42,396 nt of DNA, from NCBI GenBank assembly GCA_020851115.1, contig JADZDJ010000025.1, forward strand, positions 1 to 42,396, in the 5' to 3' direction. A model generated the notes under the pieces. The model made no database searches. It saw nothing but the letters and a program-made list of their open reading frames with translations, and was not told the origin of the DNA. Positions 39,604 through 42,396 of the stretch are shown one piece after another; the stretch's first letter is position 1, and each line of letters opens with the position of its first letter. A program made the position numbers and the translations under genes. The stretch comes from Pirellulales bacterium (GTDB taxonomy: Bacteria; Planctomycetota; Planctomycetia; Pirellulales; JADZDJ01).

Positions 39604-39754
39604 CCGCACTATGCGGCTGAGGTTGCCATGCGCGACCGTTGCGTGACGATTTCAACCTCGCCCCCACAAGGTCCGAATAACCATAACGGTCGGCGCAGTT
39701 CCGACGTTCAGCAAATCGCGACTGGTTGTTGTGCTACCACTGCAAGCATTTTAT

Positions 39755-40549
39755 ATGCTCACCTTCGATTCAAATGCTCGCGACAGCCGAACCGGACTTC
39801 CGTGCTTGTCTCGAATCCTCTGCGTTGCGAACCAAAAAGGAGGGGTCGGCAAGACGACCACCGCAGTCAACTTGGCGGTTGGCTTGGCGACGGGGGGCGC
39901 TCGCACGTTGCTGATCGACCTCGACCCACAATGTAACGCCACCAGCGGCCTCGGCTATCAGCCTGCCAACCGCCATCCGCTGGTCTCCGATTCGCCACTG
40001 CGAGAATCGTTGCTGACGACCAATTTATCTGCCCTCGAACTACTTCCAGGGTGCCGCAACTTTCAAGATGTCGAAACCCTCGCGGGCGGCCAATGTCATT
40101 CGGCCACGCTCAGACAACATTTGGCCAGCGGCCTGAGTTCGTACGACTATGTGCTTATCGACTGCCCTCCATCACTGGGGCAACTGACTCGTACTGCGCT
40201 GGCCAGCTCGACCGAAGTCGTCATGCCAATTCAGTGTGAATACTTCGCGATGGAAGGCCTCGCGCAAATGATTGATGTCATCCGCCAAGTGATGCGAGAG
40301 CCGCCGCGCCGACTGCAATTTGGCGGCATTGTGCTGACCATGGTCGATGACTCGCTCGAACTCACCCACGAAGTCGAGCAGCAAGTTCGCGAATTTTTCG
40401 GCGACATTGTTTTCCGCACCGTTGTACCTCGGGATGTCGCCGTTAGCGAAGCACCAAGCCACGGCGTGTCGGTTATCACGTATGCCCCTCGTTCTCGCGG
40501 CGCGAGAGCCTATGTCGAACTCTGCCGCGAATTGCGAGAAGCCGCCTAA
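39755..40549 (+). CDS. parA: Chromosome partitioning ATPase ParA/Soj
   Basis: A 264-residue ATPase for chromosome segregation, working with ParB and parS. From ATG 39755 (GTG at 39731 and an internal TTG are alternatives): deviant Walker A QKGGVGKTT with signature Lys28 and catalytic Lys33; Walker A' LLIDLDPQCNATSGLG; Walker B VLIDCPPSLGQLTRTAL; and the ParA switch segment MPIQCEYFAMEGLAQMIDVI. The ending GARAYVELCRELREAA is usual. Complete. It is 201 bases upstream of parB, so the two probably form an operon. Confidence 0.93.
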   Translation: MLTFDSNARDSRTGLPCLSRILCVANQKGGVGKTTTAVNLAVGLATGGARTLLIDLDPQCNATSGLGYQPANRHPLVSDSPLRESLLTTNLSALELLPGCRNFQDVETLAGGQCHSATLRQHLASGLSSYDYVLIDCPPSLGQLTRTALASSTEVVMPIQCEYFAMEGLAQMIDVIRQVMREPPRRLQFGGIVLTMVDDSLELTHEVEQQVREFFGDIVFRTVVPRDVAVSEAPSHGVSVITYAPRSRGARAYVELCRELREAA

Positions 40550-40750
40550 GCGTGCTCGTCACGCTTGGCTGTATATAAGGAGTGCAAGAGAATGCAGAAT
40601 CAATAATCCGGATTTGTCCGTTTCATCTGCGTTCATTTTTGCCACCAAGGCTTTCCACAGCATTTCACGCCATCGGTAGCGGCTATGGCGTCGTTGACAG
40701 CAAATCCAATCGAACCTGAACATTCAACAATTCATAGGGAGTCTATTCCA

Positions 40751-41734
40751 ATGGCAATTCAACGTCGCCTGGGACGCGGTCTCGAAGCCCTCCTCGCCCA
40801 TCCTTTCGGCTCCACTGGAGAAAACGAAGGTGGCGTTGCGATTGAGACGCATGACCAGCCTCAAGAAGTGCATCAGCAATATGTCGTTCCAGCCAGCGGT
40901 TTGAACCAGATAAGTGTATACGAGATTGACGGCAATCCGGCACAACCGCGGCAAGATATCGACGAATCGGAAATTGATTTGCTCGCACAAAGCCTGCGCG
41001 AACACGGGCTAATTCAGCCGATCGTCGTCCGTCGGCTCGGCGACCGTTATCAACTCATTGCCGGAGAGCGCCGCCTGCGGGCCGCCATCAAGGCTGGCTG
41101 GCCGGAAGTACCTGCTCAAGTTCGAGACGCCGATGACCGACAGGTTGCGGAATTGGCGATCGTCGAAAACTTGCAGCGCAAGGACTTGAACGCGCTGGAA
41201 AAGGCAGAGTCTTTTCAACAATATCTGCAACACTACCATTGCACGCAGGAAGAGCTTGCCAGCCGCTTGTCGATTGACCGGTCCACCGTGGCAAACTTGA
41301 TCCGACTCTTGGAGCTGCCGGAAGAAGTTCGCCAGGCAGTCCGTGGAAGCGCTATTTCCGCCGGCCATGCCCGCGCTCTCTTGCCGCTAGGTGATGAGAG
41401 CGAGCAAATCAAGGTCTGTCGCCGCGTCCAAAACGAAGGTTTGAGTGTGCGGGTTGTCGAGGAATTAGTCAAGGAAACGATCCGAGAATCCGACGGCGAG
41501 CTACTCGCCGTTGTCGACGAGAACGGCGAATCTCATCCCGTCGCGCGAACCCGCAGCGAGCATCTTTCGTCGATGGAGCAGGAACTTCGCTCGGCGCTGG
41601 GTACGAAAATCCAGATCAGCCAATCCGCCAAAGGCCGTGGCAAGATTACCATTCACTTCGCCAACCACGCCGAATTTGATCGACTGCGCACCGCCCTGAC
41701 CCAGGGAAATTTGCCAAAATCGCAAGCCGGATAG
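40751..41734 (+). CDS. parB: Chromosome partitioning protein ParB/Spo0J
   Basis: A 327-residue CTP-dependent DNA clamp that binds parS. I choose ATG 40751, where the usual start MAIQRRLGRGLEALL begins and GGGAG sits about 10 bases upstream; the open frame extends to 40685. Motifs: NPAQPRQDID (box I), QLIAGERRLRAAIKAGW with the CTP-binding GERRxRA (box II), AIVENLQRKDLNALEKAESF (box III), and the HTH TQEELASRLSIDRSTVANLI. The dimer domain ends GRGKITIHFANHAEFDRLRT. Complete. Confidence 0.94.
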   Translation: MAIQRRLGRGLEALLAHPFGSTGENEGGVAIETHDQPQEVHQQYVVPASGLNQISVYEIDGNPAQPRQDIDESEIDLLAQSLREHGLIQPIVVRRLGDRYQLIAGERRLRAAIKAGWPEVPAQVRDADDRQVAELAIVENLQRKDLNALEKAESFQQYLQHYHCTQEELASRLSIDRSTVANLIRLLELPEEVRQAVRGSAISAGHARALLPLGDESEQIKVCRRVQNEGLSVRVVEELVKETIRESDGELLAVVDENGESHPVARTRSEHLSSMEQELRSALGTKIQISQSAKGRGKITIHFANHAEFDRLRTALTQGNLPKSQAG

Positions 41735-41866: not shown

Positions 41867-41941
41867 CGGGGCGTAGCTCAGCCTGGCTAGAGCGCTTGGT
41901 TTGGGACCAAGAGGCCGAAGGTTCAAATCCTTTCGCCCCGA
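41867..41941 (+). tRNA. tRNA-Pro (TGG anticodon)
   Basis: A complete 75-base cloverleaf with a CCA end not encoded. Acceptor stem CGGGGCG/CGCCCCG with discriminator A; D arm GCTC-loop-GAGC; anticodon stem CTTGG/CCAAG with loop TTTGGGA, anticodon TGG at 41902-41904; T arm GAAGG-TTCAAAT-CCTTT. The first base C and the A73 discriminator are typical of bacterial tRNA-Pro. Its 3' end is overlapped on the other strand by the recombinase C-terminus (41923-41941). Confidence 0.95.
41922..41941. other. Putative attachment-site core in the tRNA 3' end
   Basis: The 3' part of tRNA-Pro (TTCAAATCCTTTCGCCCCGA) is shared with the end of the recombinase frame. Integrative elements commonly rebuild a tRNA 3' end, so this is the likely crossover core. 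The second copy (att at the far element end) is outside the window, and exact limits are unknown. Confidence 0.4.
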
Positions 41942-42396
41942 TTTACATTTCCTATCGACTTGTCCTCCTCGACGGACGGAACATCGTCCGGGAGCCCAAT
42001 GAGGGCGGTTCCCGGGTTGGCGGCACTCGCCGCCTTGCTTGCTTTTATTTGCTCACGGGCCGTGGGGCCCTGGTAGGGTTCGAGGGGTGAGGGGGCCGCG
42101 CCGAGAGCGACGGCGCCCGACGTCACGCGGTGGACCTCCCGCTTCTTCTGTTTCACCGGCGCGAAGCTCAAAAACAGCCGCGCATTGAGACCGCGAAACA
42201 GCTCCCCGATCGAGGCCAGTTTCTCCGGTTGCTCGGCCAGGTCGCGCAGGCGGCCGGCCACGACCAGCGCATCGCGAATCTGAGCATCGAGATCGGGCCG
42301 CGGCTGGGGCGTGGCGTCGGCAAGCTCCGCTTCAAGCTGCCGTTTTTGTGCCGTCAGAGCGTTGAAAGCTTGCGAAATCGCCTGATATTCGTCCCG
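41923..42396 (-). CDS. Serine-recombinase-type protein, C-terminal part
   Basis: A frame open from the right window edge to the stop at 41923 gives the last 157 residues. Sequence: RDEYQAISQAFNALTAQKRQ, a helical Leu/Glu-rich coiled coil; then LRDLAEQPEKLASIGELFRG, LNARLFLSFAPVKQKKREVH, SPLEPYQGPTAREQIKASKA, and the tail VNRGERI. This pattern resembles the C-terminal region of large planctomycete serine recombinases; the catalytic N-terminus is outside the window, so assignment relies on the tail only. The last six codons and stop come from antisense tRNA-Pro 3' sequence. No ATG within the window is a required start. Confidence 0.6.
   Translation of the reverse strand, partial: RDEYQAISQAFNALTAQKRQLEAELADATPQPRPDLDAQIRDALVVAGRLRDLAEQPEKLASIGELFRGLNARLFLSFAPVKQKKREVHRVTSGAVALGAAPSPLEPYQGPTAREQIKASKAASAANPGTALIGLPDDVPSVEEDKSIGNVNRGERI

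Follow-up and report, generated by a model that had tools for sequence, protein, structure and literature searches.

The window, a stretch of 42,396 nucleotides that is the complete contig C25 of a 304-contig, 5.2-Mb assembly (genome G000), probably ends inside an integrated element. Judging from sequence comparisons, the recombinase of this element, a member of a family that we call LSR1, is likely to target the 3′ terminus of tRNA-Pro genes, whichever the isoacceptor, leaving that terminus in place and taking its own C-terminal tail and stop codon from the antisense strand of the tRNA.

The recombinase frame beside tRNA-Pro(TGG)

The features of the locus are given below in window coordinates. 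Three other genomes recur in the comparisons: G001 (another genus of the same family), G002 (a sister genus) and G007 (Planctomycetales bacterium 10988, CP043547, a complete genome).

39731-40549: parA, beside parB
40685..41734, + strand: parB (PF17762/PF02195), a host gene that flanks the tRNA opposite the element and marks a conserved locus
41867..41941, + strand: tRNA-Pro(TGG), intact, the putative integration target (ARAGORN; 7/7 acceptor pairs; T-arm equal to that of the G001 and G002 tRNA-Pro(TGG))
41923..42396, - strand: C-terminal part of the LSR1 large serine recombinase, 157 codons, cut by the contig end (92% identity to the copy on contig C153)
41923..41925, - strand: TGA stop of the recombinase frame, the antisense of T-loop TTCA of tRNA-Pro(TGG)
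41937..41941, no strand: CCCGA, the inferred crossover interval (tRNA 3′ terminus plus discriminator base), with native tRNA to the left and element to the right (copy comparisons of G000 C25/C153, G062a/G087 and G007, and acceptor covariation)
41942..41967, no strand: conserved 26-bp element edge TTTACATTTCCTATCGACTTGTCCTC, a putative att half-site inside the 3′ end of the recombinase gene (column information in 20 LSR1 loci)

The order parA-parB-tRNA-Pro is common to G000, G001 and G002. In the window, the recombinase frame is open on its 5′ side to the contig end at 42396 and closes with TGA at 41923-41925, 19 bases inside tRNA-Pro(TGG). Its last codons, AAT CGG GGC GAA AGG ATT TGA, read N-R-G-E-R-I-stop and lie entirely inside the tRNA except for two bases of the N codon. 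Coordinates and codons agree with the original prediction of a frame ending 19 bases within the tRNA, with its NRGERI tail read from the antisense strand. The chance of a random gene end landing at such a tRNA position is about 1.5e-5. The overlap is more than chance because it is repeated in other genomes: with the search of other planctomycetes that had been proposed, it is found at nine loci that have a complete tRNA-Pro gene and a recombinase frame with an intact 3′ part.

On its own, the window fragment matches no Pfam family. The contig stops where the window does and cuts the frame there, so the catalytic domain is missing; no LSR1 catalytic domain was found assembled anywhere in the G000 contigs. 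The fragment can be called a recombinase since its relatives are recombinases, namely a second G000 copy on contig C153 and a full-length copy of 659 aa in G001. The C153 copy lies at tRNA-Pro(CGG) and is 96% identical over 530 bp, tRNA included. Its frame of 490-527 aa has lost the catalytic part and ends in NRGDWI, matching the T-arm of its tRNA-Pro(CGG). The G001 protein, with which the C153 copy shares 52% identity, ends in SIGNVNRGERI inside tRNA-Pro(TGG), and its gene adjoins parB.

Regarding the domains, PF00239 (1.3e-6 in full-length members) scored above the cutoff in the G001 protein, PF07508 did so in G007 and fell below the cutoff in G001 and C153, and Zn_ribbon_recom was detected, though below the cutoff, in LSR1 proteins. 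The family matches Resolvase/Recombinase and not PF00589, the tyrosine integrase domain. Full-length members carry the catalytic-serine motif FY[TS]RDSGG, with F-x-x-R-D-S-G-G invariant among those aligned, as well as an R-R-x-R-L motif, zinc-ribbon cysteines and a coiled coil. An AlphaFold model (mean pLDDT 69.7) shows long helices at 427-554, and a fold search of the PDB with this model gave PhiC31 integrase-attL as top match (E 6e-13). Only five matches fell below E 0.001, all of them PhiC31 or other serine integrase-att complexes, with low whole-chain TM-scores; the domains are probably placed differently. A PDB sequence search with the LSR1 profile returned no match. From the domains, motif and predicted fold of its full-length members, LSR1 is a large serine recombinase family, and PF00239 and PF07508 in these relatives, together with the fold match to PhiC31 integrase, bear out the serine type first proposed from the window. 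Directly upstream of the recombinase, several of the examined LSR1 loci encode a protein of roughly 170 aa that belongs to no known family, and at some of them its gene overlaps the recombinase start; our guess is that it could be a directionality factor.

LSR1 and other elements at tRNA-Pro genes

Relatives of the recombinase occur in 30 of the 396 genomes of the order, a minority being LSR1 proper and the remainder more distant groups that we call B and C. The phylum sample adds a complete genome from another family with LSR1, and a scan of public genomes adds LSR1 in Paludisphaera soli, a Rhodopirellula MAG and others. In the genome-contig scan, a truncated protein query gave no locus and an alignment query gave 19; no LSR1 was found in viral contigs. 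About 22 LSR1 loci were obtained, 12 at complete tRNA-Pro genes, 4 at tRNA-Pro 3′ fragments and 6 elsewhere:

At a complete tRNA-Pro: G000 (two), G001, G007, G042, G319 (two), L178 (Paludisphaera soli), L180, L183, L188, L209
At a tRNA-Pro 3′ fragment: G007 second copy, G161, G062b, degenerate G220
Away from tRNA-Pro: G050, L182, G087, G062a, L184, L185

The complete targets cover all three isoacceptors (TGG, CGG and GGG), and these 12 loci uphold the proposed tie to tRNA-Pro as the target, while the six loci elsewhere weigh against it. Nine of the 12 have a recombinase gene with an undisrupted 3′ part, and in all nine the reading frame continues into the tRNA; the genes of the other three are disrupted.

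Three of the copies away from tRNA-Pro have a common longer C-terminal tail (IELF..G) encoded past the att edge: those of G050 (L179, gene end near 2830), L182 (7970-8076) and G087 (contig C1, near 1724508-1724583). They also share AAAAGTTC, always 30 bp away from the edge. The IELF tail is possibly the free-form C-terminus or the product of a second target.

Other elements use the same tRNAs. We observed tRNA-Pro 3′ halves, of 42-43 bp counted from the first anticodon-loop base, repeated with several different adjoining arms, in G002 (C145 15293-15334 and 19017-19094; L120) and G103 (C14; L121), and further in G086:C226, G298:C10, G158:C29, G241:C17, G247:C401 and G166:C108. The segments between halves hold HicBA-like, AbiE-like and VapC-like genes (by eye), often without a recombinase; within one planctomycete family, they resemble an array of cassettes at tRNA-Pro(GGG). 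The elements with 42-bp halves are probably separate from LSR1 and made the halves found under some LSR1 copies.

Besides, another family of large serine recombinases, of the classical kind and about 500 aa long, lies at tRNA-Pro(GGG) and takes the tail SRGDRI from the tRNA:

G076:C69 244-1740 (L163)
G076:C295 (L164)
G042:C27 2568-4070 (L167)

Within the 3′ end of its gene there is a terminator-like hairpin (GCCCTTCGACG..CGTCGAAGGGCTTT), placed to end the tRNA transcript. At another tRNA-Pro(GGG), in G050 (C335 3664-5139; L165), the frame of a PF00589 tyrosine integrase enters the antisense of the tRNA (NVGATGFEPATS...), so the layout is common to unrelated integrases at the same tRNA. In G001, a type I-C-like CRISPR-Cas locus (Cas3, Cas5, Cas8c, Cas7 and Cas4-Cas1, by eye; C229 1-12500, L013) adjoins the left side of LSR1 at tRNA-Pro(TGG), and a tandem repeat of about 100 bp with tRNA-Pro T-arm/acceptor sequence (C142 9550-9760, L205) lies upstream of a different, 653-aa recombinase-like gene.

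The crossover and the C-terminal tail

Sequence comparisons suggest that the crossover falls in the terminal CCCGA, with a very short core. The elements of C25 and C153 adjoin tRNAs with different T-arms (GAAGG/CCTTTC versus GCTGG/CCAGTC), and their identity starts at TCGCCCCGA, then TTTACATTTCC. As the TGG T-arm is the same in G000, in G001 and in the LSR1-free G002, it is native to the host. Where the acceptor varies, its 3′ strand pairs with its own 5′ strand, as in CACCCCG (G007, G219), CAGCCCG (L183) and CATCCCG (L209), with one mismatch in L180 (6/7 pairs); the recombinase tail tracks the acceptor, being SRADRI in L183 and SRDDRI in L209. The G062a and G087 elements, 93% identical, agree in their right flanks only from CGAC onward. 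Finally, G007 holds two copies of a 3.26-kb unit (96.8% identity), both ending at a tRNA-Pro 3′ terminus. The left ends of these copies (tRNA sense) read TTTGGTC[G/C]C-GA-flank and have only GA/CGA in common with the tRNA terminus. G007 is the one genome in which the element left end was mapped; the right-edge comparisons confine the crossover to CCCGA. A crossover in the anticodon loop, suggested for LSR1 by the tRNA halves, was rejected on the T-arm and acceptor evidence.

One part of the original prediction, that the 3′ half of the tRNA serves as a long att core shared by element and host, is not supported: at each locus the T-arm and the acceptor strand belong to the host tRNA itself, and the crossover would lie in the last CCCGA. 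Nor did G000 contain the paired second copy of TTCAAATCCNNTCGCCCCGA that had been expected, its sole other copy being the tRNA of the C153 element. An exact-pattern search of the fragmented G000 assembly for a second att copy with TTCAAATCCTTTCGCCCCGA likewise found none. With a serine recombinase, a crossover at the tRNA 3′ terminus would duplicate just a few bases, so no 20-bp second copy is expected, and since LSR1 is a serine recombinase the lack of a long second copy does not count against it. So short a repeat would also explain why the left ends carry no tRNA half; no displaced tRNA fragment was found at the G007 left ends or in the roughly 75 kb beside the G007 element.

Among the genomes compared, we found no LSR1 element with both ends plus an empty site. 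The genus of G042 offered no clean empty site, the flank upstream of the tRNA matching relatives that have no tRNA there, and the DNA downstream of the tRNA in G002 had no clear counterpart in G001 or G000 that would give an empty site at the TGG locus. A motif search of the other LSR1 contigs for left ends (G007 arm plus common tail DNA) gave nothing beyond G007. In group B, the left edge CTAAATA looks sharp in five contigs and has no core in common with the tRNA end.

On the host side, the tRNA is complete and retains its native sequence as far as the terminal CCCGA, where element DNA starts. The recombinase gene lies at the element edge and points outwards. Its frame meets no stop codon before it leaves the element, so the final six codons and the stop come from the host tRNA antisense, the TGA from T-loop TTCA. 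In the circular element, the gene would run into its own att site, for which the predicted attP layout is left arm - GA - TTTACATTTC arm. The recombinase would join this short element site, with the 26-bp arm in the 3′ end of its own gene, to the tRNA-Pro terminus over a core of a few bases (GA/CCCGA), and the tRNA would stay intact because the bases upstream of the crossover are unchanged. When the two ends of the G007 element are joined on paper, the circle frame is predicted to end in NRDQTVQ instead of NRGDRI.

The edge of 26-27 bp (consensus about CTTACATTTCCTAACGACTTGTCCTC) carries a mean of 1.19 bits per column in 20 LSR1 loci, against 0.35 beyond it. Over much of its length it can be aligned base by base with group B/C elements, and some of these use a different frame there (VGATGFEPATS instead of SRGDRI), so it is the DNA of the edge, and not the peptide, that is conserved. 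We infer that this conservation reflects a recombinase binding site within the 3′ end of the gene. Downstream, the tails follow the host tRNA (NRGERI, NRGDWI, SRGDTI, SRADRI, SRDDRI): a TTCAA T-loop gives the TGA stop, and TTCGA gives read-through tails (L180, G158, G220). The C-terminus had been thought to be tied to the integration target. This stands insofar as the tail is read from the tRNA; the tail would nonetheless belong to the host tRNA and not to the element, because the crossover lies in the last CCCGA. With the last 50 residues predicted to be disordered in the AlphaFold model, the tail changing with the tRNA and one sub-group using another frame, we regard the tail as most likely a side effect of the compact layout.

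One could argue that the att core of the element is the 3′ half of the tRNA, beginning at the anticodon loop and swapped in on integration as in tyrosine-integrase islands, and that the tail is element-owned. Three copies (G007 at 0.62 Mb, G161 and G062b) indeed adjoin only a tRNA-Pro 3′ half that starts at or near the anticodon loop, and such halves are common as direct repeats at tRNA-Pro in these genomes. However, two LSR1 elements of 96% identity carry different T-arms, the acceptor 3′ strands vary in step with the 5′ strand of the host tRNA, and the G007 left ends have no tRNA half. Since the halves have several other partner arms, often without any large serine recombinase, they are more readily explained as what other elements left behind and LSR1 also takes as a target, and we consider an att core of this kind unlikely. 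Less probable still is a recombinase gene that is fixed and immobile in the chromosome and overlaps the tRNA by accident. It would fit the presence of LSR1 at parB-tRNA-Pro(TGG) both in G000 and in G001, which belong to different genera, and the damage to several copies: truncation in C153, a split in the second G007 copy, a frameshift in G042 and an internal stop in L183. Yet LSR1 is missing from the corresponding parB-tRNA-Pro(TGG) locus of G002, which shows that it is not a fixed gene beside this tRNA; its presence there in all relatives was the finding that would have decided against an integrated element. The occurrence across the order is patchy, even with the distant groups included, G000 and G007 each have two near-identical copies at separate sites, and three isoacceptors are used.

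A further reading, which would add to integration at the tRNA-Pro terminus and not replace it, takes the C-terminal change as a regulatory switch, the circle and tRNA-tailed forms differing in activity so as to favour stable integration. There are precedents in the Mx8 integrase and the serine integrase of the rumA ICEs, which alter their C-terminus on integration (PMC4701971), and in the phage BPs repressor (PMC4557955); the predicted difference between the G007 circle and integrated tails and the longer tail common to some non-tRNA copies point the same way. Neither the tail sequence nor even its reading frame is conserved, however, and the disorder predicted for the C-terminus also speaks against a switch, to which we give a rather slim chance. 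Hardly better is the chance of a clade specialised on all tRNA-Pro isoacceptors in which the T-loop stop is fixed and integration alters activity through two C-terminal forms.

Comparison with known systems

Because island finders rely on long tRNA repeats, LSR1-type elements are missed by them. A clade that uses a conserved tRNA terminus without gene damage is a possible integration tool for planctomycetes and others, and the gene overlap accounts for a class of odd annotated C-termini.

LSR1 resembles the large serine integrases of the PhiC31, Bxb1 and SPbeta type in its Resolvase catalytic, Recombinase, zinc-ribbon and coiled-coil parts; its fold matches them best, and it would likewise have a short att core. 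The target sets it apart, being the terminus of a tRNA gene, unlike that of large serine integrases, which mostly integrate at protein-coding genes. The Myxococcus phage Mx8 integrates at a tRNA gene. According to the passages that cite it (in PMC4701971; PMC4383910), its integrase gene spans att, as in LSR1, and the prophage form has a new C-terminus. The Mx8 enzyme is a tyrosine integrase in which 112 residues are replaced by 13, whereas LSR1 is a serine recombinase. The streptococcal ICEs integrated in rumA also have att inside a serine integrase gene whose C-terminus is completed by the target (PMC4701971), but there the target is a protein gene and is disrupted, and in LSR1 it is a tRNA terminus and is preserved.

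As with LSR1, the element of an Islander-type tRNA island adjoins the 3′ end of a tRNA gene and leaves it intact. These islands differ in having a tyrosine integrase and a displaced tRNA fragment at the far end, of which LSR1 showed none (G007 left ends; exact pattern in the fragmented G000 assembly). The Islander paper held that only tyrosine integrases are known to target tRNA genes (PMC4383910), a statement against which serine recombinases at tRNA genes run. The Paracoccus prophage vB_PamS_Pami6, described since then, has a serine recombinase at a tRNA gene, as LSR1 does; it is a single prophage at another tRNA, tRNA-Met, and the passages on it mention no gene overlap (PMC6536676). In the literature searched, with subscription papers outside its scope, we found no serine recombinase clade that is dedicated to the end of tRNA-Pro in several families and whichever the isoacceptor. 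The placement of att inside the integrase gene is already known from Mx8 and the rumA ICEs; the new part is a serine family devoted to tRNA-Pro.
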